This document shows positions 9,827-56,586 of a stretch of DNA of 64,000 nt, piece by piece. The notes under the pieces are model-generated. The model ran no database searches. It saw nothing but the letters and a program-made list of their open reading frames with translations, and had not been told where the DNA came from. The position numbers and the translations under genes were made by a program. How positions within the stretch are numbered: position 1 is the first letter of the stretch; every line of letters begins with the position of its first letter. The stretch is taken from contig VEPG01000010.1 in assembly GCA_012026975.1 (NCBI GenBank), positions 1 through 64,000 on the forward strand, written 5' to 3'. This DNA is from Desulfuromonas sp. GTDB taxonomy: Bacteria; Desulfobacterota; Desulfuromonadia; Desulfuromonadales; BM103.

Positions 9827-10834
9827 ATGTTGAAGAAGAGCCTTCTGCTTGTCGTTGTGACGCTGCTGCTGGCGACCGGAAATGTTCCGGCCGCCGAGAT
9901 CACCCTGCTCAACGTCTCCTATGACCCGACCCGCGAACTCTACGTCGATGTCAATGCCGCCTTCGCCAGGTACTGGCAGGGGAAAAGCGGCGACACGGTC
10001 ACTATCCAGCAGTCGCACGGCGGTTCCGGCAAACAGGCCCGCGCGGTCATCGACGGCCTGGAAGCCGATGTGGTGACGCTGGCCCTGGCCGGCGACATCG
10101 ACGCCATCGCCGACAAGGCCAGACTGCTGCCGCCTGATTGGCAGAAACGCCTGCCGCACAACAGCTCCCCCTACACCTCGACCATCGTCTTTCTGGTCCG
10201 CAAAGGGAACCCCAAAGGGATCAAGGACTGGAATGATCTGACCAGACCGGGCGTTTCGGTCATCACGCCCAACCCCAAGACCTCCGGCGGGGCGCGCTGG
10301 AACTATCTGGCCGCCTGGGGTTATGCCCTGAAGCAGAATGGCGGCAACGAAAACAAGGCCAGGGATTTCGTCGCCGCCCTGTTCAAGAACGTGCCGGTGC
10401 TCGATTCGGGAGCACGCGGGTCGACGACCACCTTCGTGCAGCGCGGCATCGGCGACGTTTTCCTCTCCTGGGAAAACGAGGCCTTCCTGGCGGTCAAGGA
10501 GTTCGGCGCCGACAAATTTGAAATTGTTGTCCCATCCCTCTCCATTCTTGCCGAACCGCCGGTGACCGTGGTCGACAAGGTGGCGGACAAGCGCGGCACC
10601 CGCAAGGTGGCCGAAGCCTATCTGAACTTCCTCTACACCCCCGAAGGCCAGGAGATCGCCGGCAAGAACTTCTACCGCCCGCGCCTGGCGGAAGTTGCCA
10701 AAAAATACGAAAAGCAGTTCCCGAAGGTAAATCTCTTTACCATCGACGAGCTGTTCGGCGGCTGGAAGCCGGCACAGACCAAGCACTTCAATGATGGCGG
10801 CATATTCGACCAGATCTACACACCAGGCCGATGA
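9827..10834 (+). CDS. sbp: Periplasmic sulfate-binding protein of the sulfate ABC transporter
   Basis: This 335-residue protein carries a signal peptide (residues 1 to about 22, ending VPAA) and the family start [15 protein letters not shown]. The conserved [12 protein letters not shown] and [18 protein letters not shown] segments contact the oxyanion in Sbp/CysP proteins. It captures sulfate or thiosulfate in the periplasm and delivers it to CysT-CysW. Length is normal. Ribosome site GGAAAGG stands 9 bases before ATG 9827. An operator-like dyad lies directly upstream, suggesting repression when sulfur is ample. It is the first gene of an sbp-cysT-cysW-cysA operon. Confidence 0.95.
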
Positions 10835-10938
10835 AAAGCACCCGTCTGCGGCGTTCCCGCCCGCTCTCGTCGCTGCGACGTACCCAGAGGGTACGCCTCA
10901 CTCCTCTAACGGACGGCGCCTTGCACCCGGGCACTTTT
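10834..10938. repeat. Palindromic intergenic element with central GTACCC/GGGTAC hairpin
   Basis: Its ends are imperfect inverted repeats (AAAAGCACCCGTCTGCGGCG at the left, GGCGCCTTGCACCCGGGCACTTTT region at the right). The centre folds as GCGACGTACCC/AGA/GGGTACGCCTC. Architecture resembles the element at 2170-2333, and it likewise begins at the stop codon of the preceding gene. Confidence 0.7.
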
Positions 10939-10975
10939 GATCGGCCTACGACCTGACGGCCAGAGGGAACCTTTG

Positions 10976-40226: not shown

Positions 40227-43200
40227 TTACCACGGGGTGACGGTGTTCCAGCCGCGGTTCGAGTAGTTGGTGCCGGTGCCTTTGGTCGCCTCGACCGCAC
40301 CAGTATCGACCGGTTCGGCGTAGAGACCGTTGCCGGTCGGCCCGCCGGTGGTCGAATCGCCCGGGATCAACCGGTTGGCGGGAATGATGCCACCGACCCG
40401 GTGGCAGTTTTGCGCCGTCGACCAGTTGGAAATACTGCGGTTAGTGTTGATCGCACCGTTCGAAGCATTCAGCTGATAACTGTCGTCCCAGGTGTTGTGC
40501 TTGGTGTCGAGGCAGTTGGTGATCATCAGCTTCGGCAGACGTGACGCGTGCGGATTGTGGCACTTCGAGCAACTGAACTTGTGATACTGGCTGTTGATCG
40601 TCGCCGCATCGATGGTGATCGTTCCCCAGCGGTTGGTGCCCGGGGTGGTGATTTCGTTGTTCTCGGAGACGGACGACAGTGACGGCGTGTAGTTGTAGCC
40701 CGAGTTGCCGCCGTTGCGGAAACCGTAGGTACCAACGTCGCCAGGCGCGACACCTGTTGTCGCCGTCCCGCCCCAGTAGTGCATCGCCGGAGTGTTGGTG
40801 GCGCCAGTGGTCGAGAGCGTACCGCCACGGAGGTCGAAGATGTTGGCCGCAGTGCCGGCGGGGACGTTGCCCGTGCCGCCGATGACCGCATTGGCGTGGC
40901 CGTTGGCGCTGAACCACATGTTGGTCTCGGTGGTGTTCCAGTTCATCGTGCTCGGGTTGTTGCCGTGGCACAGGGTGCACAGGCCGGCCGAATCAGCCAG
41001 GGTCCAGGCGCCGCCGGTGCCGGTGCCGCCGGTGGCCGTCGGGTTGGCCGAGGCAGTCCCGTTGGCCGCCGCACCAGCCGTGCCGGGACGGACGTTGTTG
41101 ATGTCGATAAAGAAGCCGCCGATATAGGTCTGGTTGGCCCCGTTGCCGCGCGGCACGGCACCGAACGGCGCGGTAACAGAATAGGCAGTGGCTGCCTGCG
41201 GCGCCCCGTCCTCCTCGTAGGGGTTCCCCCACCAGGTGCCACGCAGATACGGCGGGCCGTTGGGGCCGACGGCATCGTGCACGTCGTGGCAGTAAGAGCA
41301 ACGGATCAGGGCGACGTTGTCCGGGCTCTCCTTGTAGGCATAGGCCGTCCCGGTGACCGTACTGGCACCCGCGCTGTTGGCCGCATGGGTCGACTGGATC
41401 TTGCTGGTCTTGTAGCCGAACTTCGCCTGGCCGCTGGTCCAGGTCGCCGTGGTCCAGTTCGAGGTCGACAGTGAACCGTAGTCATACTGATACTGCGATG
41501 CTGCCGCGGCTCCGGCCTGGTAGCTGTTCTTGCCCCATTCGGAGACGAAATCCTGCAGGGTGATCATCTCGCCGGCAGTGGCGTCGGCGGTGAAGGTGGC
41601 TGCCGGAAAGGTCAGGGTGCCGGCAGCAACGGCTGTCGGGGTGACCCACTTATTGTTGGCGACCACGGATGAGCCCATAACCTTGAGCGGCTTGCCCACG
41701 GTGAAGACGCCCAGGCCGGCGCCGGAATCGACGATGGTGGTCGCGGTGAAGGTGATCGTGGCCTTCTTGACATTGGCCGTGCCCATGGCATCGTGGCAGC
41801 CCCAGCAGATCTCCGCCTCGGTGGTCTTGGTCGCGATCGAAGCATGGGTTCCCGGCCCGCCGAGCTTGATGCCGCCGTGCTGCGTGCCAACGTAGTTGAT
41901 GCCGACCGTCGCGTTGTTCGGGATGTTCACCCCACCCGCTTTGATGTAATGACCGCTGTGGCAACTGCCGCAACCGGTGAACGTACCATTCTTGGTGACC
42001 GTGGTGTGCGGGCTGGTCGACGTGACGATGGTCGCCCCGCCGACGCCGGTGGTGTGGCAGGCGCCACAGTCGCCCGGGCCGATGTCGGCCGCCTTGAGCG
42101 GGCTGTTGATGCCGCCGGGGATAGTGAACTGATGGGCGGTATCGTTGCCGTGGCAGACGGCGTTGTCGCAGCCGCCGGTCGTCGGGTCGTAGTCCGCATC
42201 GTTGGCCAGATTCGCGTCACCATCATCGTTCAGGGTGATGGTGCCGTCCATGTGCTGGCCAATGGTGTTTCCCGGACTGCTGTAGGTAGTGAAATTCGGC
42301 GCCTCAGCAGGATCGCCGTTCATGGCGGTTAGCTGCGCTGCCGTCATCCCGGTGATCGGCAGGGCACCGGAGCCATTGTCATTCCAGCCATGGCAATAGA
42401 GGCATTGGCCATGGTTGTCCTTCAGGTACTGCAAACCGTTCGGCGTGGTGTGGTTGACCGGTTTGATGACGCCACTGCTGTAGGTGGAATAACCGGCGGT
42501 GACGCCAACCGGCGGATAGTTGTGGCACGACTGGGTGCAGTTGAGGATCGCCGCCGAATCCCAGCTGGTCGCGCCGTGGCACTCGGTAGTGCAGGTGCGG
42601 TTCGCGTTATAGCTGGATCCGAGGCCGGCGCCGCCGGTCGTCCCCGGCGATGAGAGCTTGGCCGCTTGACGGAGCTTGACGTTGACCGTGCCGTTGACAT
42701 GGGTCGTATCGTTATAGTTGAAGCCGTCATGGCACAGGGCACACGGGTCACCGGTCTGGTAGACGCTGTCGTCAAGGTGGTTGGCATGCTTGCCAACCTG
42801 GAAGCCGGTGGTCAGGCCGGCGAGATCCCTGCTGGTGACACCGCCGACGGTCAGGCCTGTCGGCGCGCCCGCACGGTAGCCGACCCCGGTCCCGATGCCC
42901 CCGTGGCAGGAGCCGCAGGGTTGGGTCGAAGCCGGGTTCCATACTGGTCGCGCATAGCCGTGACAGTAGACCGCGCAGGTCATGTCGCCGCTGGCGGTAT
43001 TGACAACAGTGGCCGGTGTGGTGGAGGTGTCCCCGGTATAGCCGCCGCCGGTGGTGCGCCCCTCGTAGGTGCCGCCGAGAATCTGTTTCACGGCGCCGGT
43101 GAATTGCGGGTTGACGCTCACTTTGAAGCCGATGTTGAGGTTGCCGTTTTTCGGCATCTGGTTGGGACCATCCCAGCCGTTGTGGCAGGTGTTGCAGTCG

Positions 43201-46200
43201 TAGCCAAGATCAACGGCATGGCGTTGGTGCTCGCCCCACACCGTGGAACCGGTGGTCGCCGGCTGGGTCGCCAGACCGGCGGCACTAACCGGCGGCGTAC
43301 CATGACAGTTGTCGCAGGAGGCGCGGAAACCGACGTTGTGCTCGTGGCAGCGGATGCAATCGGTCTTGTTGTTGTGCAGTTTGTTGGTCAGCGTACTGGA
43401 GTTCTGGCGATGATAGGTGGTCTGGCTGTGGCAAACCTCGCAGACCCGGTTCGACGTGGTGTGGCTGTCGCTGTCGTCGCCGAATTCGGCGGTCCCCTCA
43501 CGGACATCCTGCAGGGCCACGGTACTCCCCGGCAGGGTATCGGCCTTTGCCGTCACCGCCGTGATCACCCGTTTGACGTTGCTGCTGTTCTTTGCATGGC
43601 AGGTGCCGCACTCGAACGCGTCGTACTGGGCGCCCGGGTAAGAGGCGTTCGGCAGCCCCCAGCCGCCGGGCCACTTGCCGTTGAGATCCCAAGTGCCGCC
43701 GGCACCGACGCAGGCCGCCTCGCTGGCATAACCGATCTTGCTGCAGGCAAAGCGCAGGGCGTTGTGCATCAGGTTGCTGTCGACCCAGGAGGTCAGCTGT
43801 ACGGTTTTCTTCCAAGGGGGCGCCGTCGCCTGCGACAGCTGGATGGTCGTCCAGTCGACGACGTCCGGGGCCGTCTCGGTGACAGTCACCTCGATGTCAT
43901 AGCTGGTATCGGTCGTCAGGCTGGTCAGCATGAACTGCACGGTCTGGTTGCGCAAACCGTCAGCGTCGCCCGCCTGGCCGTCGATCACCGGGCCGACCGT
44001 GGTCCAGTTGGCCGGGAGGTCCGGTGCGCTGGTCAGCTTGTAGCGCACCGTGGTCTGGGCATTGTCGTTCTTGTCGCTGCAATAGTTCATTGAGACGGTG
44101 ATCGAGGTCTTGCCAAAGGCTTGCGCCGTGATCTGCAGCGGCCGGATGCGGTTAAGACGGCCATCGAAGGGGACATTGTAGGCTTTTCCCGGGGCCGTCG
44201 CCCCCTCGACGACAGTGCCGCCGTAGATGCGCTTACCGCAGACATTCAGCGCCCGGAAGCGGAAGATCGCCGTCCCCAACTGGTCGACCTTGGGGGTAAA
44301 GGTCGCGCCGTTGGTCTGCCAAGTGCCGCCGTCGTCGAAGGAGACCTCGATCGCGGTGACGCCGACCGTGCCCGTCGCCGTGATGGCAGTCGCCACGGTG
44401 ATTGGCGCGCCCGGAACAGTCCAGGTGACCGTGCTGGTATTATCGATACAGGTGTTGTCGATTGTCACCGAGGTCGCCGCCGACGTGACGTAATTGCCGC
44501 AGTCGGGATCGTTGCCACTGGTGGTGAGCGTCACCCCGGACAACGCGGGGCCGGTACCGCAGGCCGAGGTATCCCAACTGTACTCCCACCGACTCGACCC
44601 GGCGTTCCAGGTCATCACCCCGTTGGAGACGTTGCAGGCGCCGGCGCCGGTAATATTCACCGACATGTTGGTCATGGTCGACGGCGCGGATTCCACGCCG
44701 ACCTGGGCACGCACGACCACCAGGCCCGTCACCGTGCCGCTCGGCGTCGTGGTCAGCGTCGCCAGGTCGGCATCGTTGGTATTGTAGGCAACCGCCCCTG
44801 ACTGCACCGTGATGGTCGCACAATCGCCGGATCCCTGGGCGCGGAAGATCACACTCCCGCTCGCGCAGGGCGGCGGCGTGAAGGTGGAGCCGTTGGCTAC
44901 CCAGGCGCTCCAGTTGGTACCGCCGTCGATGCTCCAGCTGACCTGGATGCCGGTGGCGGTGCCGCCGGCCGTGACCGTCACCGGTCCGGTGATCGGTGCG
45001 GCGGGGCTGGGTGCGGTCAGGGTTTTGGTCTCGCTGCACGCATTCCAGGTGAAGGCCGTCGGCGTCGTGGTGATCGCGGCGCCGCAATCCGGATCGGTGC
45101 CACGGACCTCCAATGTATAAGTGCCGAGGTTGACATAGTCGCCGCAGAGCGAGCCGCCGGCCGCAGTGGCCGGAATTGCTGCAGTCGCCGTCCAGTTGGT
45201 GCAGATCGTGACCGTCGGGTCGGGGGTCGAGGTTACGGCCACCCAGCTGCCGGTGGTCGTCGTAGTCCCCCCGTAATAGACCCGGCAGGTGGTGCCGCCG
45301 GCAAAGGTCGTCGCGGCGATCTCGTACATCAGGCGATGATTGGCCTGGACCTTGCCGCCGTTGACCAACGTGTAGGTATTGAATACCGCGGCCGTAGTTG
45401 CGGCATTTGAAATGTTGGTCACCGTGTTCGAGGTCGCGATCTGGGTTTTGGTGCCGGTCGCCGGATCGTAGTCGTAAAGATGCATGGTGAATACGTCCCC
45501 TGTCGCCGTGGAACGCAACGCCGCGTTGGCGGAAATGGAGGAGAGCGTCGAAGTGTAGGTGTACACCGGCGAATAGCCGCGGATAAGAACCTTGGCGCCG
45601 GCCGCCAGGGTCGAAGGCCGCCAACTGGTTGCCGTGGTGGCGCCGGTCGAGGTCGTGCCGCGATAGGGGATCGTCGTTCCCGTCGATTGGATCGTCGGTA
45701 GGTTCGCCGTGCCGTCGGTGCCGAGGTTGGTGGTCGTATCGCCCTGTAGGTACAGGGTGGTCGTCGTCGGCCCGGCAGGGGCGGCCGTACGGGTCACCTT
45801 GTATTCGAATGTCCCAACATCGCCAGTCGTGGTTTTCAGGTTGCCGGCGTTATACGGCGTGCCGTAGGCGGTCTGGCCGGTCGGGATGGTGATAGTCGAG
45901 GGGTCGGCATCGTAGCAGGTGTACCAGGTGAAATCCTGACCGTTCCCTGGAGCGGTGGTGCCACCGACGTAATAGGTGGTCAATCCGCACTCGGTGTCGG
46001 TGCCGCGCGCGTACAGCTTGTATGAGCTACCGTTGGTCAGGACTGCGGCAGCCTCCTGCGGGTCGGCGTTCCAGTCGATCAGGACAGTTTCCACCGTGGC
46101 CGGCTTCAGACTCATGGCAGTCATGGAATCGAAGGCCGTGTTACTTGCAGTATGCTGGGAACCATCGCTGGCCGCGGTTGTCACGTTGCGATTACGGATA

Positions 46201-49148
46201 TAGACTTGGAAACAAGGGGTATTCGTCGCCGTCGTATATGCCTGCGCCAGCCCTGCGGTCTCCCAACCCGCGGCCCAGGTCGTAATCGTGCGACCGGTCG
46301 TGCCCGTGGTGCTGCGGGCCAGGTTGACAACTTCGATGGCCTGATCGCCGTCGTTGATGGTCAGCGCCGGATTGAATGGGCCGACCGTGGTATTGCCGGC
46401 ATTGCTGTTGTAGTTCTGCGTGCTCGTGAATGGTGTGGTCTGATTCACATTGCCGAACACCGCCGCGCCGACGTAGGTGTAGAGTGCGGTGCCGCCGGTA
46501 ATGGTCACGTTCAGGTTGTCGTCCGGCACGGCCTGGGCGGCCTGGATTCCCGCCTCATCCAGATAGTAGAGATAGGAATGATTCCAGGTGGCGGTCGAAC
46601 TGCCGTCGCCCGCGGCGAGGGTCAAGGCTTGCCCACCATAGGTAACGGATACGGTTTGATTTCCGACAGCCGTCCGCGTCGAAGCGATGGCAACGACCAG
46701 CAGACGCTGGCTGCCGGCGCCCACCGCATAGGCGGCATTGATGGTGCCGGCAGGATAGCCCGCCTGGTTATACTGCTGCGCCCAGGCATTCACCGTCCCG
46801 ATCGTTGCCGGCCCGGTCCCGGTCACACGGTACTGCAGGTTGTTCAGGTCGGTCGCCGTGACAAAGGTGGAACCGTTGAAGTTGCCGCCGGTCGCGGTCG
46901 TGCCGGTGAACGTAAGGGAGGAGAGCACCGACTCGGTGCACAGCGTGAGCTGGTTGCCGGTTGCCGGGGTCTCGCGGTAGTTGGTCCCCTGGTTATCACC
47001 GGCTGTATCGACGGTTCCCTTGTATTCGTAAACCGCGACATGATAGGTCGTGCCCTTAGTCAGACCAGTCACGGAGGTGCTGGTGCCAGTGCCCTTGTAG
47101 ATCACATAGTTGCCGGTGCCTATCTGTGCGCCGCTGCCGAAAACAGTATTTGCCGTGTAGGTGGTATAGGTGCCGTCGGCAGGATCGGCATCGACAGCCG
47201 ACACAGCTTTCATCAGAACGATGACGCCATCACCCGCGGTGCCGCGCGTCCAATTGACAGTCATGCCGGTCGAGGTGACGTTGGTGAAATTGACACCCGA
47301 CGCCTGAGCTGACGGTTCGGTGTAAAAAGAGCCGTCCGGCGAATATGCCGTGCCGACGGAGTTAGTCGCATAACCGCGATAGTAGATTTTGGTGCCGGCT
47401 GTCAGTCCTGTCCGCGCCTGTGTGAATACCCCGGTGGTCGTTCCCCCTGCAGCGACCTGATTGCCGGTCGGGTTCGCAGCCGTTCCCCAGACGGTGCCCC
47501 GAGCGGTCAGGGTCGCGCCGCCGTTGCTGGTAATGTTTGCACCCAAGGTTGCCGTGGTCGCTTCAAGCAGGGTGGCTGTTGGTGTAGTCAGAGTTGGCAG
47601 CCCTGGCGGAGTCTGGTTGCCAGTGGCCGGTGCCTCACGGTAGTTGGTTCCCTGATCGAATCCACTGGTGTCAAGTGCACCCTTGTATTCATAGACCGCC
47701 ACATAATAGGTGGTCCCAGAAGTCAGACCCGTCACCGCGACACTGGTCCCTGCTCCTTTAAAAACCACATAGTTGCCAGTGCCAATCTGGGTGCCGCTGC
47801 CAAAGGCCGCATTGGCTGTATAGGTGCTATACGTACCATCAAGCGGATCGGAGTCGACCGCCGAGGCTGCCTTCATCAGGACGATGACGCCATCGCCGGC
47901 CGTGCCACGCGTCCAGTTGACGGTCATTCCAGTGCTTGTAACTGATGTGAAGTTGACACCTGAAGCTTGAGCAGATGGTTCGGTGTAGAAGGAACCGTTC
48001 GGAGAATACGCCGTACCGATGGAATTGGTCGCATAGCCGCGGTAGTAGATCCTGGTTCCAGCAGTCAGTCCTGTTCGGGCCTGGGTGAACACTCCGGTGG
48101 TTGTGCTCCCTTCGGCAACCTGGTTGCCCGTCGGGTTCGTCGCCGTTCCCCAGACGGTACCTCGAGCGGTGATCGCAACTCCGCCATCGCCGGTTACTTC
48201 AGCACCTAGGGTTGCGGTAGTCGCCTCCAGAAGAGTTGCTGTCGGGTTGGCCAGGGTTGGGGCCGTCGCGGGCCGAATCGCCAAGGTTCCTGCTGCCCAC
48301 GAATCGCTGTTCGACGTTGTGCCTGTCCATGTTGCAGGGTCTAATGCACCGCTAGTCCACGCAATTGATGCAATACTCGCAATGGCTGACATCGTGGTGC
48401 CGGCACCTGGAACAGAAACCGGATTTCCATAACCCGATGGCGGGGTAAAAGCCGTCGGCGAAGCAGGACCTGTTCCGAGACCAACGGTCAGGACATAAGC
48501 ACCCGCTGTTACCGGCGTGATACTCGGGCTGTCCGGTAACGCCACGCCTGCGTTGTTGGCAGCAACAGCACTCGTTGGGGCAACATCCATCGGCGTTGCC
48601 TGGTTGGCTCCACGCCAGACATGAATAGCCGTCGCGCCACCGTTTGCAGCGTTACCGAAACCGCTTACGGTAACGGATGTGTCTGGCGTGCTCCCCATGA
48701 TCTTCCAGTTGACACTGAGGTTGGCATCTCTGGTGTCACTAGCGTATAGGTTAAGAACTTCCGTATAGCCCGCTGTTGTAACTCCGGGAGTGCCATCTGC
48801 ACCACTTGCCCAACCGGTGACCACAATGACCAGATCGCCTGCAGCAGGAGATGTTGCAAGACCTCCCGTCAAAGTGCCATTCAGGGAAACGTTATACGTT
48901 GCGCCGGTGCCATTACCGGATGTTCCACCGACATATTGAAGAGCCGCTTGCGCTGCAGACAACAAACCGACCGCGTTGAAAACAACTGCAAGCAGCACGA
49001 TCAAAGCTACGCGCAAAAATTTTCTCATCCCTCTCCCCTCCCCACCCCGACGCGGCACCGCGTCATCGTGACGTGCCGACCTGGTGACAGCATGACTGCT
49101 GCCGACATGTCCGTTGTTCATCATCTTTTCGCTGTGCCGTTCGTTCAT
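40227..49148 (-). CDS. Giant exported multihaem cytochrome c with FN3-like N-terminal half
   Basis: This is a 2973-residue protein. A signal peptide lies at about residues 41-68 (MRKFLRVALIVLLAVVFNAVG...AQA). Residues to about 1840 are beta-rich adhesin/fibronectin-III-like domains, with a near-duplicate block of about 215 residues at roughly 303-519 and 519-729. The last third (from about 1845) carries some 18 haem motifs: by my count 14 CXXCH, 3 CX3CH and 1 CX4CH, beginning CGTCH and ending CSKCH. CX4CH with CXXCH is typical of Geobacter outer-surface cytochromes. ATG 49148 has AGGAG 8 bases upstream; ATG 49028 also has a good site and a standard signal peptide. It is probably a cell-surface electron-transfer or adhesion protein. 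A GEMM riboswitch precedes it. Confidence 0.9.
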   Translation of the reverse strand: MNERHSEKMMNNGHVGSSHAVTRSARHDDAVPRRGGEGRGMRKFLRVALIVLLAVVFNAVGLLSAAQAALQYVGGTSGNGTGATYNVSLNGTLTGGLATSPAAGDLVIVVTGWASGADGTPGVTTAGYTEVLNLYASDTRDANLSVNWKIMGSTPDTSVTVSGFGNAANGGATAIHVWRGANQATPMDVAPTSAVAANNAGVALPDSPSITPVTAGAYVLTVGLGTGPASPTAFTPPSGYGNPVSVPGAGTTMSAIASIASIAWTSGALDPATWTGTTSNSDSWAAGTLAIRPATAPTLANPTATLLEATTATLGAEVTGDGGVAITARGTVWGTATNPTGNQVAEGSTTTGVFTQARTGLTAGTRIYYRGYATNSIGTAYSPNGSFYTEPSAQASGVNFTSVTSTGMTVNWTRGTAGDGVIVLMKAASAVDSDPLDGTYSTYTANAAFGSGTQIGTGNYVVFKGAGTSVAVTGLTSGTTYYVAVYEYKGALDTSGFDQGTNYREAPATGNQTPPGLPTLTTPTATLLEATTATLGANITSNGGATLTARGTVWGTAANPTGNQVAAGGTTTGVFTQARTGLTAGTKIYYRGYATNSVGTAYSPDGSFYTEPSAQASGVNFTNVTSTGMTVNWTRGTAGDGVIVLMKAVSAVDADPADGTYTTYTANTVFGSGAQIGTGNYVIYKGTGTSTSVTGLTKGTTYHVAVYEYKGTVDTAGDNQGTNYRETPATGNQLTLCTESVLSSLTFTGTTATGGNFNGSTFVTATDLNNLQYRVTGTGPATIGTVNAWAQQYNQAGYPAGTINAAYAVGAGSQRLLVVAIASTRTAVGNQTVSVTYGGQALTLAAGDGSSTATWNHSYLYYLDEAGIQAAQAVPDDNLNVTITGGTALYTYVGAAVFGNVNQTTPFTSTQNYNSNAGNTTVGPFNPALTINDGDQAIEVVNLARSTTGTTGRTITTWAAGWETAGLAQAYTTATNTPCFQVYIRNRNVTTAASDGSQHTASNTAFDSMTAMSLKPATVETVLIDWNADPQEAAAVLTNGSSYKLYARGTDTECGLTTYYVGGTTAPGNGQDFTWYTCYDADPSTITIPTGQTAYGTPYNAGNLKTTTGDVGTFEYKVTRTAAPAGPTTTTLYLQGDTTTNLGTDGTANLPTIQSTGTTIPYRGTTSTGATTATSWRPSTLAAGAKVLIRGYSPVYTYTSTLSSISANAALRSTATGDVFTMHLYDYDPATGTKTQIATSNTVTNISNAATTAAVFNTYTLVNGGKVQANHRLMYEIAATTFAGGTTCRVYYGGTTTTTGSWVAVTSTPDPTVTICTNWTATAAIPATAAGGSLCGDYVNLGTYTLEVRGTDPDCGAAITTTPTAFTWNACSETKTLTAPSPAAPITGPVTVTAGGTATGIQVSWSIDGGTNWSAWVANGSTFTPPPCASGSVIFRAQGSGDCATITVQSGAVAYNTNDADLATLTTTPSGTVTGLVVVRAQVGVESAPSTMTNMSVNITGAGACNVSNGVMTWNAGSSRWEYSWDTSACGTGPALSGVTLTTSGNDPDCGNYVTSAATSVTIDNTCIDNTSTVTWTVPGAPITVATAITATGTVGVTAIEVSFDDGGTWQTNGATFTPKVDQLGTAIFRFRALNVCGKRIYGGTVVEGATAPGKAYNVPFDGRLNRIRPLQITAQAFGKTSITVSMNYCSDKNDNAQTTVRYKLTSAPDLPANWTTVGPVIDGQAGDADGLRNQTVQFMLTSLTTDTSYDIEVTVTETAPDVVDWTTIQLSQATAPPWKKTVQLTSWVDSNLMHNALRFACSKIGYASEAACVGAGGTWDLNGKWPGGWGLPNASYPGAQYDAFECGTCHAKNSSNVKRVITAVTAKADTLPGSTVALQDVREGTAEFGDDSDSHTTSNRVCEVCHSQTTYHRQNSSTLTNKLHNNKTDCIRCHEHNVGFRASCDNCHGTPPVSAAGLATQPATTGSTVWGEHQRHAVDLGYDCNTCHNGWDGPNQMPKNGNLNIGFKVSVNPQFTGAVKQILGGTYEGRTTGGGYTGDTSTTPATVVNTASGDMTCAVYCHGYARPVWNPASTQPCGSCHGGIGTGVGYRAGAPTGLTVGGVTSRDLAGLTTGFQVGKHANHLDDSVYQTGDPCALCHDGFNYNDTTHVNGTVNVKLRQAAKLSSPGTTGGAGLGSSYNANRTCTTECHGATSWDSAAILNCTQSCHNYPPVGVTAGYSTYSSGVIKPVNHTTPNGLQYLKDNHGQCLYCHGWNDNGSGALPITGMTAAQLTAMNGDPAEAPNFTTYSSPGNTIGQHMDGTITLNDDGDANLANDADYDPTTGGCDNAVCHGNDTAHQFTIPGGINSPLKAADIGPGDCGACHTTGVGGATIVTSTSPHTTVTKNGTFTGCGSCHSGHYIKAGGVNIPNNATVGINYVGTQHGGIKLGGPGTHASIATKTTEAEICWGCHDAMGTANVKKATITFTATTIVDSGAGLGVFTVGKPLKVMGSSVVANNKWVTPTAVAAGTLTFPAATFTADATAGEMITLQDFVSEWGKNSYQAGAAAASQYQYDYGSLSTSNWTTATWTSGQAKFGYKTSKIQSTHAANSAGASTVTGTAYAYKESPDNVALIRCSYCHDVHDAVGPNGPPYLRGTWWGNPYEEDGAPQAATAYSVTAPFGAVPRGNGANQTYIGGFFIDINNVRPGTAGAAANGTASANPTATGGTGTGGAWTLADSAGLCTLCHGNNPSTMNWNTTETNMWFSANGHANAVIGGTGNVPAGTAANIFDLRGGTLSTTGATNTPAMHYWGGTATTGVAPGDVGTYGFRNGGNSGYNYTPSLSSVSENNEITTPGTNRWGTITIDAATINSQYHKFSCSKCHNPHASRLPKLMITNCLDTKHNTWDDSYQLNASNGAINTNRSISNWSTAQNCHRVGGIIPANRLIPGDSTTGGPTGNGLYAEPVDTGAVEATKGTGTNYSNRGWNTVTPW

Positions 49149-49238: not shown

Positions 49239-49320
49239 GTTCGTATTTTTCTAATGCACACCATACATGAAAGCCACAGTTCCCATTGCACTGATCAGCC
49301 GTTAATTCCTAAGGATCGCT

Positions 49321-49395
49321 TGTTAGCAACCCGGCTGTCCGCGTGGGACCCGTGGCTTTGCGTCCCCGGGTTGCCCCGGGTTTGCCCGAATTATT
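49321..49395 (-). promoter_or_regulatory. Cyclic-di-GMP (GEMM-I) riboswitch aptamer
   Basis: On the minus strand the conserved GEMM-I elements appear in order. GGGCAAACC is followed by a perfect P1b stem CCCGGG capped by GNRA tetraloop GCAA. Then comes GGACGCAAAGCCACGGGTC, a short loop (CCACGC), and GGACAGCCGGGTTGC. The position that distinguishes c-di-GMP from cGAMP binders looks like G, so c-di-GMP is the expected ligand; this assignment is from memory of the family alignment. It lies about 170 bases upstream of the giant cytochrome start. No clear terminator-type expression platform is visible, so control may act on translation or on RNA stability. Confidence 0.88.
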
Positions 49396-49416: not shown

Positions 49417-49451
49417 CATGACAACCCGGCCATTTCGGCCGGGTTGTCATG
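49417..49451. terminator. Strong hairpin between the two giant cytochrome genes
   Basis: Perfect 15-bp arms (CATGACAACCCGGCC and its complement) flank ATTTC. It begins 12 bases after the stop of the 59-haem gene and lies just upstream of the riboswitch. No T-run follows on the minus strand, so it may be leaky and allow read-through into the riboswitch. Confidence 0.6.
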
Positions 49452-49462
49452 CATCCCCTTAA

Positions 49463-52400
49463 TTACTTCGGCAGACTGGTGTGGCAACCCATGCAGTTCG
49501 GCGCATAGGTGGCCGGGTTGATGTTCCCCGCCGAATTCCAGATCGCCGGCTGATTATTGTGGCAAGCAACATTACTGCAGTTGCCACCGGCGAAGTTCGG
49601 CGTGGCGAACGCCGCCTGGCCCTTGTCGTGGCTGGCCGCCGCCTTGTAGCCAGTGATGCGGTTCCAGACCGCCGACAGGATGGTGGTGCCGTCATTGGCA
49701 TCCGCCAGGTTGTCGCGCAGCTGGGCCTTTGACTTGAAGGCGGTCATGTCGACGAAGCTGACCTCGGCGGTGGCGGTGCCGTCGTCAAGGTGTTTCGACT
49801 TGTCGGCCACGGCCATAATCACTTCCGCGGCACCACTGTGGCAGCTGTTGCACTCGGTGCCGAACTTGTTGCGCGCCGAGGTCACGGTGCCGCTGTGGCA
49901 GACGTTGCAGCTGATGGTCGAGCTGTTGGTGGCATCACCGTGCGACTTGGTTGCCGTCGCCGTGGACAGCTTGCCGGTGGCGCCGGAGTAGATATCCTCG
50001 GCATGGATGCCGACCGCGTGGGCGCGGTGCGCGTTGGTGGTCGGGCTGTTGCCGTGGCAGTTGTTGCACGGATCGCTGTCGTCGCTGGCACCCCAGTTGG
50101 TGGCGGCCCAGTAGGCCGTGCGGATCGCATCGTTGCCCACGCCGGCACCCTTGCCGTTGTTATGGCAGGCGTTGTTGACGCAGCTGTCGGTGCCGGCAAC
50201 GTAGTTCACCGTGGCAGCGACGTTGATGGTCGGAGCGGCCCAGCTCGCCGAGCTGAGATGGTTTGCCAGGGTGTTGCCATGGCATTTGGCGCAGGTGAAG
50301 CGATACTCGCCGGCGGTAGAGCTATTGGCAGCCGCAGCGGTGTAGGACGTGGCACCGGCCGTCCCAATGTGGGCGTCGTGCGCGGCGGTTGCCGCGGGCG
50401 CCGCGTCGAAGTGGCAGATCGAACAATTGTCCGCCGCCGAGGGGGTGCGATTCCAGAGCGGCGTCACCTTGGCCGTACCATTGCCGTCCTGGTGACAGAT
50501 GTTGGTGGTGCAGGTACCGGGGCTGGCCGCCTGGGTGACGCCCAGGTTGGTACCGTTGTAGCCCATGGTGCCGAGAACGTTGATGCTGGCGTTCATGTGA
50601 TCAACATTTGACGTCGAACCGTTGTATGGATGGCACTTGGAGCACGCCATGCCGCCAGCGCTGATCATGACGCCATCGGCGACGAAATGCGGCTGATGAC
50701 CCTGGGCATTGTTCAGATGACAGAAGCTGCACTGGCTGTTGGTCGTGGTCCCCCAGGTATAGACACCGCTGGCCGGGGCGCCGTTGCGGCCGTTGTTGTG
50801 GCAGGCGTTGGTGCCGCACGAGCCCTTGACGGTCGGATAAGTGCCGGTATAGGCGAGCGTTACGCTGCCGCTCACGTTGAAGGTGCCGTTGATGTGGTTG
50901 CTGGCCGGCTTGGTGTTACCCGTCCAGCTGGTGGCCGCGTCATGGCAATAGGCGCAGCTGTTGTCCAAGCCGTAGATGCTGCCGCTGAGGTGCGCGGCGT
51001 GGGTCTGCTCGGCCGGGGCGTTGATATGGCACATGCTGCAGACGCTGGTGCTCGCGCCGTACCAGCTGTAGCCGGCCGGGGTGGTCATGTTGTTGTGGCA
51101 GTCGACGGTGGCGCAGGTCCCCTTGTTGGTGTCGCCGGCGGCATCCCAGGCACCGTTGTCGGCCGAACCGTCCCACAGTTTCTTCATGCTGGTGACGTTG
51201 CCCACCGAGTTCAGGTGGTTGATCGTGCCGGCGGGAGCCGGGTGACAGTATTCGCAGATGGCTCGCTGCTGGGCATCGTCGCCCGGCAGGGTGACGCCGA
51301 GCTTGGCCGCCACGATTTCCATATGCTTCTGGTGACGACCGGCACGGTCCGGAGTTGCACCGCCATCCGGCCAGTAGCTGTTGGTGCCGTTGCCGTGACA
51401 GCTGAAGCAGCTGCTGGGGAAGTCACCATAGGCAATCGTCCAGTTGGAGTCGGACATGGTGTGGTTGTAGTTCGACGCGCCGGAGTCGGTCAGGGAGCCG
51501 GTATGGCAGGCCGACAGGCAGCCGAAGTTGGTTTCGTCATACTGGGCACCGGCCGCGGTTCCATGAGCCGCATCCGGGCCGTTCATGTTGATCTTGCCGT
51601 CGCCGTGGCCGAACGGAGTCGGTGATCCCCCGCCCCAGGCTTCTTCGTATTGGTCACTGCCGTAACCGTGGCAGGTCTTGCAGTTGGCGTGCTGAGAGAG
51701 CATCTCGATATCGGTATCGGCATCCGGGCTGTCTTGATGGCCCGGCGCCATGCCGGCATTCCAGGCGTTGTCGACAGTGGTGCCGTCGGTCTTGTTGATG
51801 CCGTCGCCGTGGCAGTTGTCGCAAACCGCGGCGCCCGGGTTGTCGGTGGCGAGAGGTTTGGCATCGACCACGCCGAGCCACTTGCGCGACCACTTGCCGT
51901 TGCCGCTGTTGGCCACGGCGTCGAGATGGCACTTGGCGGCGCACCCGGCGGCACTGTAGCTGTTGATGTTGGCGTTCCAGGTATAGGTGATTCCGCCGGC
52001 GCCAAAAGCCGTCGGGCCGACGGTATTGATGTGCTGGCTAGTAACCGCGGTGCTGTGGCACGAAGTACAGGTCGCGGTCCCCGGCGCGGCTTCAATCGCA
52101 GTGGCCAGGAACTGGACATCGTGGGCCATGGCGGTAGCCGCCGTATGCAGGCCGCTGGTCGGAGCCAGATTGGCCTTCAGACCGGCCTTAGCATTGGTAT
52201 GGCAGTCGACGCAGCCGAGCAGGTTGGCCGCCGTCCAGGTGGCGTCGTTGCCGCCGCCGGCCGCGTTGTCCACGCCGTTGAGGGTGTGACAGGTGTTGGT
52301 GCAGTTCCCGGCCGCATAGGCGGAAACCTTGTTGCCGTCGACTTCGACAATGTTGTTCAGCAGGCTGTGGGTCACTGTATTGGTGCTGTGGCAATCGACG

Positions 52401-55400
52401 CAGCCAGCCGCGATGTAGCCGCCGCCGTGATCGGCGTGCTTGCCGGTTGCCGGCGGGAGGCCGCGGGTCAGCAGGGCGCCGCCGGCGCCGGCCCAGGTCT
52501 TGCCGCTGACGTGGCAGTCCTCGCAGCCAAGCTTGTTGGCGCTGGTCCACGACGGGTTGTCGGCTGCGGCGCCGACATTGTTGTCGAGCCCGTCGAGGGT
52601 ATGGCAGGCGTTGGTGCAGGTCGGCGCGCTGGCGACGGTGGCGTTGCCGCCGAGGTCAACCGTGCCGAAGACGTGAGTGGTTACGGCCTTGGTATGGCAG
52701 TCGTCGCAGTTACCCGGCACGTAGGTGTTGCTGCCGAGGTGGACGGCATGCTTGTTGGTGGTCGGCGTCGCCGCGCTGTCGCTGCCGTGGCAGGTGCCGC
52801 AGGCGCCGTCGCCGTTGTTAAGACCGGCGATGCGTGCGTCGGTGTTGAACCAGTTCGGCGCATTGGCCGGCTTGCCGCCGGTAAAGTTGCCGTGGCATTC
52901 GAGGTTGGCGCAGGTGGAGAATTCAGCAGCGACCGCACCGGCGGCGTTGTACTTCGGACCGAGCTTGGTCCCGGCGGTGGTGGCCGCATCGATCGACAGG
53001 GTCGTCTCAAGCGGAGCCGCGGCCGTGCTGAAGTCGATCACGCCGTTCTGGTGGGCGGCATCGATCGTCGACGGATGACACTGTGTACAATCCATGTTGC
53101 GGCCGTTGGCGGCCGTTTCGCCCATGTGCTTGTCGTGGGCATCCGGCAGGGTTCCCAACGTGTATGTGCCGGTGTAGACGTGGCAGTAGTTGCAGTTGGC
53201 CGAAGCCTGGTCGCCGGCGGTGTACCAGTCGGCCGCGACCGTGGCCGTGGTGTAATGGCAGTCGACGTTGGAGCAGCTGACGTTGCCACCGCTCTGGGTG
53301 ACGGACGAGGTCTGGACGTTGGTCGCGCCAAGGATGTTCTTGAACTTGCTGGTGGTTCCATTCATCAAGTCGGCCGGCGAGGCCGCCTGGTCACCCGAGT
53401 GGCCGCCACTCGGGTGGCAATAGCCGCAGGTGGCGTTTTTCTGTGCCATGGTGGCACCGACGCCGGCAATCTTGGTGATGTGGATGTCGTGAGAACCAAG
53501 ACGGTTCGGCCAGGCGGTACCGTGCTGGGCGGTGCTGTCGGGCCAGTAGTTGCCGGCAGCGGTGTTGCCGTGGCAGTCGGTGCAACCTGCCGCGAACGAT
53601 TCCGGCGTCGATTCGTGCCTGTGGCACTGGGTGCAGACCGAACCCGGATTGTGGCTGGCATCGGCGGTCACGCCGTTGGCCGTGCGGTTGAAATAGCTGA
53701 CCTCGGTCGGGTCGTGACAGACCTGGCAGACACCGGTGTTGTCCGCCTCCCAGTAACTGGCGCGGGCGGCCTTGTCGGTAAAGTTGTTGACCGTGCGGCT
53801 GGCGATGGTGCCGAGCAGCATGACGTCGGTGTTGGTCCCCATTCCATCGCCGTGCGGCTCGTGACAGGTGGCGCAGGCGAGAGCGTCATTGCTGGTGCCA
53901 CCGGCCGTCCTGGTGTTGGCATAATGCGAATTGATCGCATGGCAACTCTTGCAGAAGGCATCGTTGGCCGTCGCACCGCCGGTGAGCATGTTGCTGTCGG
54001 TCACGCCGTCGATGTGATCGGCGGTCAGCGTATGGCAGCCAAGGCAGTTCGGCGAACCGGCGGGGAGAGTCGGGTCACCATGACCGCCGCCGCTGACGTA
54101 GAAACTGTTTTTGGCCGGGGCGGTGCGGGCATTGATAACCGCCAGCACGCCGACATGGCAGGTGCCACAGTCGACGGAAGCCACGCTGGTCCAGATCGGC
54201 TCGCGGTCGTTGCCGGTGGTCTGACCGGCGGTGGCACCGTGGCAGGCGTTGCATACCGCCATGGCGGGCTTGTCGATCACGCGGTTGACGTGCGCGGCGT
54301 GGGTACCGGTCGAGGCGTTGGCACCATGGCACGTATCGCAGCCGATGCCGGCATTCAGGTGCTTGTCATGGGCATCGAGCAGACCGGTTCCGGCCGCAAC
54401 GGCATGGCAGTCGCCGCAGTCGCCGGTGGTCGCGTCATCCCAGTCGGGAGCCTGCTTGACCGCGCCTTTGCCGTTGCTGTGGCAGTAGGTCGTACAGGTC
54501 CCGTCGGTGTTGCCATAGGAACCGGCGCCGAGGGCACCACCCGCGGCGGCGCCGTTCAGGTCGAAAGCATTATCGAAGAAGACATCGGCCTGACCGTCGA
54601 CATGGTCGCCGCCGGCCGCCACCAACGCGGTGTTGCCGGTTGCCGTCTGGCTGTGGCAGACGTTGCAGGCATAGTTTTTGTTGAGGTGCGCGATATGCGT
54701 GGCCGAGTTATCGCGCTGGGCGGGGGCCATGGTGGCTGCGGTATTGCCGTGACAAACGTCGCAGGTCGCGATGTCGCCGGCACCCGTCGCCCAGACCGGC
54801 GCGGTTGCGGAGTACTTCTTGGCACCATTGCTGCGCGGACCGCCGTTGGAATGGCAATAGGTTGTGGAACAGCTGCCGTTGCCGGTCGCCGTGTAGGCCG
54901 GCGTAGACGTATCGGTCCAGGCGATGGTGCCGCTGCCGCTGAAGGTCACGTTCTGGAAGTTGCCGTCCTTGTGGGGAGCGGTTTCGACGTCGACCACGGT
55001 GTAATGGCACTGGTTACAGGCAAAGGAGTAGTCAGTGCCGCCGTTGGTGTGGCGCTTGTGCGGCGTCTGCGATTCATCTTTGAATTTGCCGCTGGTCGAG
55101 TAGTTATAAATGGGTGCGGTCGTGGTGACTGCGTAGCCGGTCGTCCCGCCCGCCGTATTGGTCGTCGGTGCATAGCCGTGGCAGCCGTTGCAGGTCTTGG
55201 TGAAGCTGCCGGTTTGGTGGCTGTGGCAGCCGACGCAATCCGCGGAAGTCGCCGATGCCACGTTGTGCTGGGTCACCGTCGCGGGGATATTATGGCACCC
55301 CTGGCAGTAGCCGGTACCGGAAGCGTTTTTCCATTCGGCCGTGGTCGTCGTGTAAGCCAGGGGATCGGAGTCGCCGGCGGCACCATCTTTGGGCACCCAG

Positions 55401-56365
55401 CCGAGAGCGGTGACCACGGGACGCAGCATGTTGTAGTTGCCGGCCGGCGAATGGCCGCCGTGGCAGTCGAGGCAGCCGAGGGTGGCGTGCGTGCCGCCGT
55501 GCTTTTCATAGATGTGGCAGGTCGTGCAGAGGGCAGAACTCTTGACGCCGGTCGCGTCCGTCGCCACCCGCCCGTAGGAGCGCAGCGCCTTGCCATTGCC
55601 GCCGGAAAATGAAAGATTATCCCAGTTGGACGGGATATCAGGGGTAGTCGGGTCGGAATCGGCAAAATGAACCTGGTGGCAGGAACCGCAGACCACCTTG
55701 CCGCCGGTGAGGCTGATCGGCGTATCGGTATTGATATTGCCGTCGTTTGTCGGCAAGGACCCCACCGCCACATACTTGCCGGGATGGGCCGCCGCCGCAG
55801 TCGCATAGTCGATATCGACCGGGTGGGTGACATTGGTCATGCCGGCCCCCTTGACCCAGGGCACGTGGCAAGCGGTACACATGGTTTCGGCGGAACCGAC
55901 ACCCTTGGTGAGCAATTGCGGGTTGGTGTCGTCACCGTGCGGGTTGTGGCAGCGCGAGCAGGTCACCCGGCCGGTCGACGCCCCCTGGCGGGAATAGAAC
56001 TCCGGATGCGTTATTCGCGAGGGGGCCGTTGCCCCGGCCGCCGTTTGAGTATCCGGCCCCGACCAGTTGTGCGAGGTCTGCCCCCTGCCGGCAACGACGG
56101 AGGCGTTGTTGCCCATGGCATTACTGGAGTCCAAGGCGCCAAACGCCGAATTTGTCGACCCGGTCGTCCCATCGTTCAGGAGTGTGTTCAACTCCCCGGA
56201 ATGGCACGTCAGGCAAACGTTGCCCCCGCCGAGGTCGGCAACCGACAGGGTCGGGATGTGGCAGTTCTTGCAGTCGAAGGTATGGACTACCACCGCGCCG
56301 GCAAGTTGCGGCAGGGTAAGTAGAGCCGCCAATACCACTGCAGTGAACATCGCTCTCGGTTTCAT
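49463..56365 (-). CDS. Very large exported multihaem cytochrome c, about 59 haem motifs
   Basis: The 2300-residue precursor has a signal peptide (MKPRAMFTAVVLAALLTLPQLAGA), and haem motifs begin within 10 residues of it. By my count there are 46 CXXCH, 5 CX3CH and 8 CX4CH motifs, spread evenly to the C-terminus (CMGCH). They form repeating modules of CX4CH-HNNG and CXXCH-GN types with many distal histidines (AHxxHL). No other domain is evident, so it is likely an extended haem wire on or outside the outer membrane. AGGAG lies 7 bases before ATG 56365. It follows a tetrahaem gene and precedes the giant FN3 cytochrome on the same strand. Codon composition gives long open frames on the opposite strand, which are not genes. 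Confidence 0.93.
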   Translation of the reverse strand: MKPRAMFTAVVLAALLTLPQLAGAVVVHTFDCKNCHIPTLSVADLGGGNVCLTCHSGELNTLLNDGTTGSTNSAFGALDSSNAMGNNASVVAGRGQTSHNWSGPDTQTAAGATAPSRITHPEFYSRQGASTGRVTCSRCHNPHGDDTNPQLLTKGVGSAETMCTACHVPWVKGAGMTNVTHPVDIDYATAAAAHPGKYVAVGSLPTNDGNINTDTPISLTGGKVVCGSCHQVHFADSDPTTPDIPSNWDNLSFSGGNGKALRSYGRVATDATGVKSSALCTTCHIYEKHGGTHATLGCLDCHGGHSPAGNYNMLRPVVTALGWVPKDGAAGDSDPLAYTTTTAEWKNASGTGYCQGCHNIPATVTQHNVASATSADCVGCHSHQTGSFTKTCNGCHGYAPTTNTAGGTTGYAVTTTAPIYNYSTSGKFKDESQTPHKRHTNGGTDYSFACNQCHYTVVDVETAPHKDGNFQNVTFSGSGTIAWTDTSTPAYTATGNGSCSTTYCHSNGGPRSNGAKKYSATAPVWATGAGDIATCDVCHGNTAATMAPAQRDNSATHIAHLNKNYACNVCHSQTATGNTALVAAGGDHVDGQADVFFDNAFDLNGAAAGGALGAGSYGNTDGTCTTYCHSNGKGAVKQAPDWDDATTGDCGDCHAVAAGTGLLDAHDKHLNAGIGCDTCHGANASTGTHAAHVNRVIDKPAMAVCNACHGATAGQTTGNDREPIWTSVASVDCGTCHVGVLAVINARTAPAKNSFYVSGGGHGDPTLPAGSPNCLGCHTLTADHIDGVTDSNMLTGGATANDAFCKSCHAINSHYANTRTAGGTSNDALACATCHEPHGDGMGTNTDVMLLGTIASRTVNNFTDKAARASYWEADNTGVCQVCHDPTEVSYFNRTANGVTADASHNPGSVCTQCHRHESTPESFAAGCTDCHGNTAAGNYWPDSTAQHGTAWPNRLGSHDIHITKIAGVGATMAQKNATCGYCHPSGGHSGDQAASPADLMNGTTSKFKNILGATNVQTSSVTQSGGNVSCSNVDCHYTTATVAADWYTAGDQASANCNYCHVYTGTYTLGTLPDAHDKHMGETAANGRNMDCTQCHPSTIDAAHQNGVIDFSTAAAPLETTLSIDAATTAGTKLGPKYNAAGAVAAEFSTCANLECHGNFTGGKPANAPNWFNTDARIAGLNNGDGACGTCHGSDSAATPTTNKHAVHLGSNTYVPGNCDDCHTKAVTTHVFGTVDLGGNATVASAPTCTNACHTLDGLDNNVGAAADNPSWTSANKLGCEDCHVSGKTWAGAGGALLTRGLPPATGKHADHGGGYIAAGCVDCHSTNTVTHSLLNNIVEVDGNKVSAYAAGNCTNTCHTLNGVDNAAGGGNDATWTAANLLGCVDCHTNAKAGLKANLAPTSGLHTAATAMAHDVQFLATAIEAAPGTATCTSCHSTAVTSQHINTVGPTAFGAGGITYTWNANINSYSAAGCAAKCHLDAVANSGNGKWSRKWLGVVDAKPLATDNPGAAVCDNCHGDGINKTDGTTVDNAWNAGMAPGHQDSPDADTDIEMLSQHANCKTCHGYGSDQYEEAWGGGSPTPFGHGDGKINMNGPDAAHGTAAGAQYDETNFGCLSACHTGSLTDSGASNYNHTMSDSNWTIAYGDFPSSCFSCHGNGTNSYWPDGGATPDRAGRHQKHMEIVAAKLGVTLPGDDAQQRAICEYCHPAPAGTINHLNSVGNVTSMKKLWDGSADNGAWDAAGDTNKGTCATVDCHNNMTTPAGYSWYGASTSVCSMCHINAPAEQTHAAHLSGSIYGLDNSCAYCHDAATSWTGNTKPASNHINGTFNVSGSVTLAYTGTYPTVKGSCGTNACHNNGRNGAPASGVYTWGTTTNSQCSFCHLNNAQGHQPHFVADGVMISAGGMACSKCHPYNGSTSNVDHMNASINVLGTMGYNGTNLGVTQAASPGTCTTNICHQDGNGTAKVTPLWNRTPSAADNCSICHFDAAPAATAAHDAHIGTAGATSYTAAAANSSTAGEYRFTCAKCHGNTLANHLSSASWAAPTINVAATVNYVAGTDSCVNNACHNNGKGAGVGNDAIRTAYWAATNWGASDDSDPCNNCHGNSPTTNAHRAHAVGIHAEDIYSGATGKLSTATATKSHGDATNSSTISCNVCHSGTVTSARNKFGTECNSCHSGAAEVIMAVADKSKHLDDGTATAEVSFVDMTAFKSKAQLRDNLADANDGTTILSAVWNRITGYKAAASHDKGQAAFATPNFAGGNCSNVACHNNQPAIWNSAGNINPATYAPNCMGCHTSLPK

Positions 56366-56586
56366 GGGCCAACTCCTAGCTGTTGCGGCGGATCGCATTT
56401 TCGCGGATGAATCCCGCTCTTAATAAACGAAGATCAAGTCTTTTAAGTCTATATTGCTGCTGCTGTTTACTCTCGTTTAAGCTACAGGCCTGCAATCTTA
56501 AAAAAACCTATTATAATACCCTAATAAACTGCTCGTCTTCCGTCCATTCAAACCATTGCAAACATGTTCATAGCTCGCCGGTCAGC

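Follow-up and report, generated by a model that had tools for sequence, protein, structure and literature searches.

What does a cyclic dinucleotide riboswitch do in front of the gene for a giant multiheme protein, and through which of its helices does it act? The question is raised by a stretch of 64,000 nucleotides of Desulfuromonas sp. DNA (contig VEPG01000010.1, positions 1 to 64,000; hereafter the window), on whose minus strand an initial annotation had placed a GEMM-I riboswitch upstream of a cytochrome gene.

A GEMM-I aptamer between two giant multiheme genes

Scanning of the whole window with cmscan placed a GEMM-I/c-di-GMP-I aptamer at 49395..49321 on the minus strand, the strand of all features of the locus given below. 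With the RF03167 model (c-di-GMP-I-GGC) it reached 63.8 bits, above the gathering score of 59 (E = 9.3e-13), and in a search of the whole genome the parent family, RF01051, gave 63.2 bits for a gathering score of 35, so that the annotation was borne out by both covariance models. Two Rfam matches over threshold were listed in the 64 kb, the riboswitch and one tRNA. The motifs and the GCAA-capped stem that had been read from the sequence were all found in GEMM-I order, namely GGGCAAACC, the stem CCCGGG-GCAA-CCCGGG, GGACGCAAAGCCACGGGTC and ACAGCCGGGTTGC, and the features of RF01051, P2 with a GNRA tetraloop, P3 and the conserved joining nucleotides, are present. Mapping the cmscan structure line onto the sequence placed P2, with its GCAA tetraloop and a G21-C46 pair, at 49360..49385 and P3, in the ligand-bound conformation, at 49328..49357.

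The aptamer of the initial annotation therefore stood, and what that annotation had not covered was a nearly missing P1, the expression platform, 19 further copies in the genome and a mismatch to the 'GGC' label of RF03167. P1, the closing helix that is usual in GEMM-I and usually used for switching but is not obligatory, was reduced in the Rfam alignment to two A-U pairs and one A.A mismatch, and the window copy thus departs from RF01051 in this feature. At +0.6 kcal/mol its P1 duplex was the weakest among 59 GEMM-I copies of the genus, and the tail of the aptamer reads CTAAC, not CCGAA. A weak P1-like helix of 6 bp (UAAUUC/GAAUUA) is possible in the aptamer-forced fold of the window; it is not found in the second genome of the genus described below (G021). 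This genome, of the order Desulfuromonadales, holds 20 GEMM-I copies in all, so that the aptamer itself is ordinary.

The riboswitch sits inside a gap of 314 nt separating two giant multiheme genes. Upstream lies a gene for a 2311-aa cytochrome with 46 CXXCH motifs and an MtrC/F-like domain (49463..56398). The downstream, target gene (40227..49148) encodes a protein of 2973 aa with 14 CXXCH motifs, domains resembling fn3 and the purple acid phosphatase N-terminus, and a Cytochrome_C7 stretch. The giant cytochrome gene of the annotation was thus recovered, though the CXXCH motifs are confined to residues 1847-2860 and are preceded by the fn3-like domains. A hydrophobic stretch at about residues 41-68 looks like a signal peptide after an unusually long N-region; the protein is secreted-looking, and its designation as a surface protein may be appropriate. 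The annotated start is plausible, with ATG at 49148 and a Shine-Dalgarno-like AGGAG at 49161-49157 that is conserved in the second species.

No sigma-70 promoter-like site was found when the stretch separating the aptamer from the upstream gene was scanned. A 14-bp hairpin follows the 2311-aa gene at 49418..49450 and shows compensatory differences in G021; it could possibly mark an mRNA 3' end or act as a stabiliser. Its place ahead of the aptamer and the lack of a U-tract after it led us to reject it as the terminator of the switch. The region upstream of the aptamer also holds a palindrome, ATTCA-CACA-TGAAT (49406-49393; ATTCATAAATGAAT in G021), which is possibly part of an operator or promoter.

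Conservation in a second species of the genus

When 22 family genomes were searched at the DNA level, a 63-nt core of the aptamer was found with 100% identity in G021, on contig C155 at 258-320. Upstream, the neighbouring genes of the window and of this contig are collinear with 77-91% DNA identity, while the flanking non-coding DNA has diverged and, ahead of the aptamer, about 65 nt are inserted in G021. Since the core is identical in a second species while flanks and genes have diverged, the match is not due to chance, and an identical core amid drifting flanks is a pattern that points to selection on the RNA. The ortholog of the 2311-aa cytochrome on the G021 contig is 78% identical over the last 399 aa. 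Of the gene downstream of the aptamer, this contig covers only about the first 110 nt, and the giant gene there is a putative ortholog judged solely from the conserved Shine-Dalgarno sequence, the start position and a similarly extended N-terminus.

A search with the N-terminal 249 aa of the 2973-aa protein gave no match in the remaining 21 genomes of the family; the third member of the genus, whose genome is about 100% complete, likewise had no match to the N-terminus. A search of genome contigs with the 2311-aa cytochrome, meant to find orthologs in named species, returned three loci that belong to a single MAG (JAMPXI01, Desulfuromonadales bacterium R2F), and no further orthologs. Homologs of its C-terminal 399 aa were found in 26 genomes in an order-wide search of 136. 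Of the 28 cytochrome-homolog loci (L058-L085), 20 were scanned with cmscan and showed no GEMM-I, a weak result because these loci extend only 1.5 kb beyond the match. At L066, in another genome of the order, group II intron models (RF02001, RF01998) matched next to a giant cytochrome gene. Two segments of the window, 2170-2334 and 10825-10947, match the G021 contig out of gene order (90% and 81%, the first inverted) and may represent a dispersed repeat.

A predicted leader hairpin that captures both strands of P3

When the leader was folded as far as the outer arm described here, the minimum free energy structure was the same three-part hairpin in the window and in G021, with P2 intact and P3 wholly dissolved. 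The inner arm is formed by GGGUUGCU (49325..49332), in which C92 and a portion of the P3 3' strand lie, and AGCGAUCC (49313..49320), and both strands are conserved. The middle arm is formed by CAGCC of the P3 3' strand (49333..49337) and GGCUG (49296..49300), again conserved on both sides. In the outer arm, CCACGGGUCCC (49345..49355), which includes the P3 5' strand, pairs with GGGAACUGUGG (49274..49284; GGGUCCGUGG in G021), an assignment that draws on the fold and on a duplex test. The outer stem can be extended in the window by pairing AAAG (49359-49356) with CUUU (49273-49270). After the hairpin comes a short U-tract, a candidate terminator end, which is UUUUU in G021 and only CUUUC in the window (49269..49273).

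The three-part fold lay below the aptamer-forced fold by 16.1 kcal/mol in the window and by 9.0 kcal/mol in G021, these being secondary-structure energies, for a leader transcribed as far as the outer arm, that ignore tertiary docking and ligand. The modelled pairing shows that P3 of the aptamer and the three-part hairpin are mutually exclusive in both species. When the downstream sequence was shuffled with the aptamer held fixed, 0 of 1000 shuffles reached the observed energy in either species, a result that is biased because the end point was picked after seeing the fold. In a fairer pairing test, the strongest partner of each copy's P3 5' strand was sought within the 150 nt that follow and compared with 600 shuffles; 54 of the 59 genus copies entered, five being skipped for want of a regex anchor or because of a short leader. 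The window ranked first among the 54 (1/600) and its G021 ortholog third (11/600). The copy ranked second, L014, has no U-tract and presumably reflects chance. Window and G021 differ in the 3' strand of this outer arm, yet the pairing is retained. The inner and middle arms show little independent covariation, as they are largely identical by descent, and the conservation of the competing fold is that of two orthologs in one genus.

A terminator scan of the window leader detected no standard terminator, and no separate terminator was found downstream. An order-wide search of the 136 genomes with a model combining aptamer and platform listed matches in 51 genomes. None of the 18 other loci folded from that search showed the three-part capture; four of them had no hairpin before a T-run, and in two, L170 and L183, the P3 5' strand was partly paired over a short length. 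Use of the P3 5' strand was also assigned to L006 and L150 by an automatic terminator classifier. L006 has its own local downstream hairpin before a U-run, and its assignment looks like an artefact.

Proposed mechanism

On balance we favour a transcriptional ON switch for the 2973-aa multiheme gene, in which P3, held by c-di-GMP, would block termination; the ligand, the ON direction and the termination read-out are inferred. With c-di-GMP bound, P2 and P3 would dock and stay folded, the leader arms at 49320-49313, 49300-49296 and 49284-49274 would not pair with the aptamer, and RNA polymerase would continue into the gene. In the unbound RNA these arms would capture both P3 strands to give the long three-part hairpin that ends at the short U-tract, and transcription would tend to stop. 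P1 would have been given up as the switching helix, and the net prediction is that c-di-GMP turns the giant gene on. A broader evolutionary reading is tentative, and we hold it with less than even confidence: a canonical G21-C46/G20 aptamer may have been rewired from the usual OFF platform of its lineage to an ON platform, P1 being discarded and the leader evolving to open P3 by pairing with each of its strands, and c-di-GMP would thereby switch on a giant multiheme protein amid a giant-cytochrome cluster in the same cell in which cGAMP-type copies drive other genes. We found no description of wiring through both P3 strands without P1 in the literature searched, mostly non-subscription papers, and make no claim that it is absent from print.

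Alternatively, the aptamer may be functional while its read-out is something other than intrinsic termination: the hairpin would modulate the access of Rho, the decay of the RNA or a pause of transcription inside a cytochrome operon that spans 60205 to 40227. The weak U-tract of the window is consistent with such a read-out, as are the want of a promoter-like site between the two giant genes, the common strand of all genes from 60205 to 40227, and the hairpin without U-tract at 49450-49418. In the ortholog, however, UUUUU directly follows the outer arm, which argues for intrinsic termination at least there, and we regard this alternative to the ON terminator as unlikely.

Ligand bases and the nucleotides available in the cell

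Pocket and P2 bases were assigned by alignment and tabulation, using Vc2 numbering (that of the Vibrio reference type): G20 is 49386, G21 is 49385, C46 is 49360, A47 is 49359 and C92 is 49326. Position 20 had been singled out in the initial annotation as deciding the ligand. The base there is G, as in c-di-GMP aptamers, and not the A of cGAMP-binding GEMM-Ib. From G20, and also A47 and C92, the ligand is predicted to be c-di-GMP rather than 3',3'-cGAMP. An A20G change in the Gmet_0970 aptamer turned selectivity from cGAMP to c-di-GMP (PMC6456294). This remains a prediction and not a certainty, because the base equivalent to position 20 is described as a selectivity factor and no hard filter (PMC9262584) and one Geobacter GEMM-I copy was sensitive to both nucleotides (PMC6456294).

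The higher-scoring Rfam model might seem to suggest a variant ligand. The window shares the RF03167 consensus and scores over its gathering threshold, but the model has G at Vc2 position 47, after P2, where the window has A. Seven of the 20 GEMM-I copies of the genome passed the RF03167 threshold; G47 occurred in none of the 20, all of which have A. 'GGC' probably names these pocket bases. The label is no evidence of a variant ligand here because the discriminating G47 is absent, and we rejected it as a sign of altered specificity. It serves instead as a warning, since the Rfam label was given to sequences without the discriminating base.

The genome encodes 13 GGDEF domains, ten of which could be read by pattern, and seven of these have the usual Asp (GHxxGD). 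Two, L144 (G000:C72) and L146 (C65), have Ser at the selectivity position (GHLVGS) in an otherwise standard domain, which is the Hypr signature; L148 (C15) is a degenerate domain with Ser and GGDDF. All three are candidate cGAMP synthases. An active GGDDF cGAMP synthase is reported from G. sulfurreducens (PMC8835794), and with this precedent and both Asp and Ser domains in the genome, signalling through both c-di-GMP and cGAMP is likely. The genome thus appears to use the two nucleotides on 20 related switches.

It follows that the window copy might respond to 3',3'-cGAMP, or to both nucleotides, rather than to c-di-GMP alone. Nine of the 20 genome copies have A20, the genome encodes the two Hypr-like domains, and the tolerance at position 20 and the dual-sensitive Geobacter copy also speak for it. 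Against these stand G20 of the window together with A47 and C92, and the A20G exchange that flips a Geobacter aptamer to c-di-GMP, and we consider such a ligand quite unlikely.

Platform types among the GEMM-I copies of the genus

The three genus genomes hold 59 GEMM-I copies, one of them below the family cut-off. Position 20 is G in 37 and A in 22, and the foot of P2 is G21 in 27 and C21 in 32. All four combinations of position 20 (A/G) and P2 foot pair (G-C/C-G) occur within the one genus, and the type of platform tracks the foot pair and not the ligand base. Among G21 copies a C92-CGAA tail was found in 23 of 27 and a CUUCGG-like downstream element able to pair with the tail in 13 of 27, which suggests an OFF-type layout. 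Direct capture of the aptamer 3' end by a U-tailed hairpin, an ON-type layout with a precedent in Geobacter pilM, was scored by one fixed rule in 0 of 27 G21 and 23 of 32 C21 copies; the rule scans only 60 nt past the aptamer, too short a reach for the U-tract in the window and its ortholog. The window copy fits neither layout of the genus.

These counts bear on whether the window carries a true c-di-GMP aptamer with an ordinary OFF platform, in which ligand-stabilised P1 frees a downstream terminator, as would hold for most G21-type copies of the genus. The core does belong to the G21-C46 lineage, in which the CGAA tail and its CUUCGG-like partner are widespread. The window, however, has neither tail, partner nor P1, and its leader has no separate downstream terminator, which makes an OFF platform improbable. 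That the riboswitch is decaying and non-functional, having lost P1 and terminator, would agree with the nearly absent P1 and the weak U-tract of the window, but 63 aptamer nucleotides are identical across species amid drifting flanks and the outer pairing is retained despite a changed 3' strand, so that we consider it highly improbable.

Comparison with known systems

The favoured ON switch can be set beside several known types. The window shares with the RF01051/Vc2 type P2 with a GNRA loop, P3, the bases G20, A47 and C92, and a place in the leader of a redox or surface gene; it differs in that P1 is cut to two A-U pairs and the platform pairs with both P3 strands. Cd1 of C. difficile is likewise a GEMM-I without canonical P1, but it works in the OFF direction, and its T+H terminator is a separate element (PMC9262584). 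The 88-nt form of Cd1, without P1, binds c-di-GMP at 0.25 uM, and a P1-truncated pilM still binds cGAMP, more weakly, at 12 uM compared with 0.44 uM for the 84-nt construct (PMC9262584); P1 is thus not strictly needed for binding. The Geobacter GEMM-Ib ON switches of pilM and GSU1761/pgcA resemble the window proposal in that the bound aptamer excludes the terminator and that cytochrome or pilus genes are controlled; unlike the window they bind cGAMP, and pilM has P1 (PMC9262584 and PMC6456294). In most copies of the C21 lineage of the genus a U-tailed terminator takes the aptamer 3' end, whereas in the window both P3 strands are taken.

The annotation had stated that GEMM riboswitches control cytochrome and pilus genes in Geobacter, and GEMM-I cases are in print (PMC6456294). 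A GEMM-I before a cytochrome gene is thus known biology, and the double-strand wiring of P3 would be an unusual variant of it. Beyond the model species of Geobacter, the locus would bring the window's largest multiheme protein under the control of a second messenger that is tied to surface life. Among the 59 genus copies the ligand base and the P2 pair occur in four combinations, with two or more types of platform, which offers a set in which independent changes of ligand and sign can be studied.

Translations of the first downstream frames, read by eye, showed multiheme cytochromes after L002, L005, the tandem copies L011/L013, and L014. The frame downstream of the tandem L012/L016 has two CXXCH motifs in the part read, and the tandem L015/L017 precedes an L,D-transpeptidase-like lipoprotein. 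One of these three tandem pairs has G20 and two have A20, and each copy is followed by its own U-tailed hairpin.
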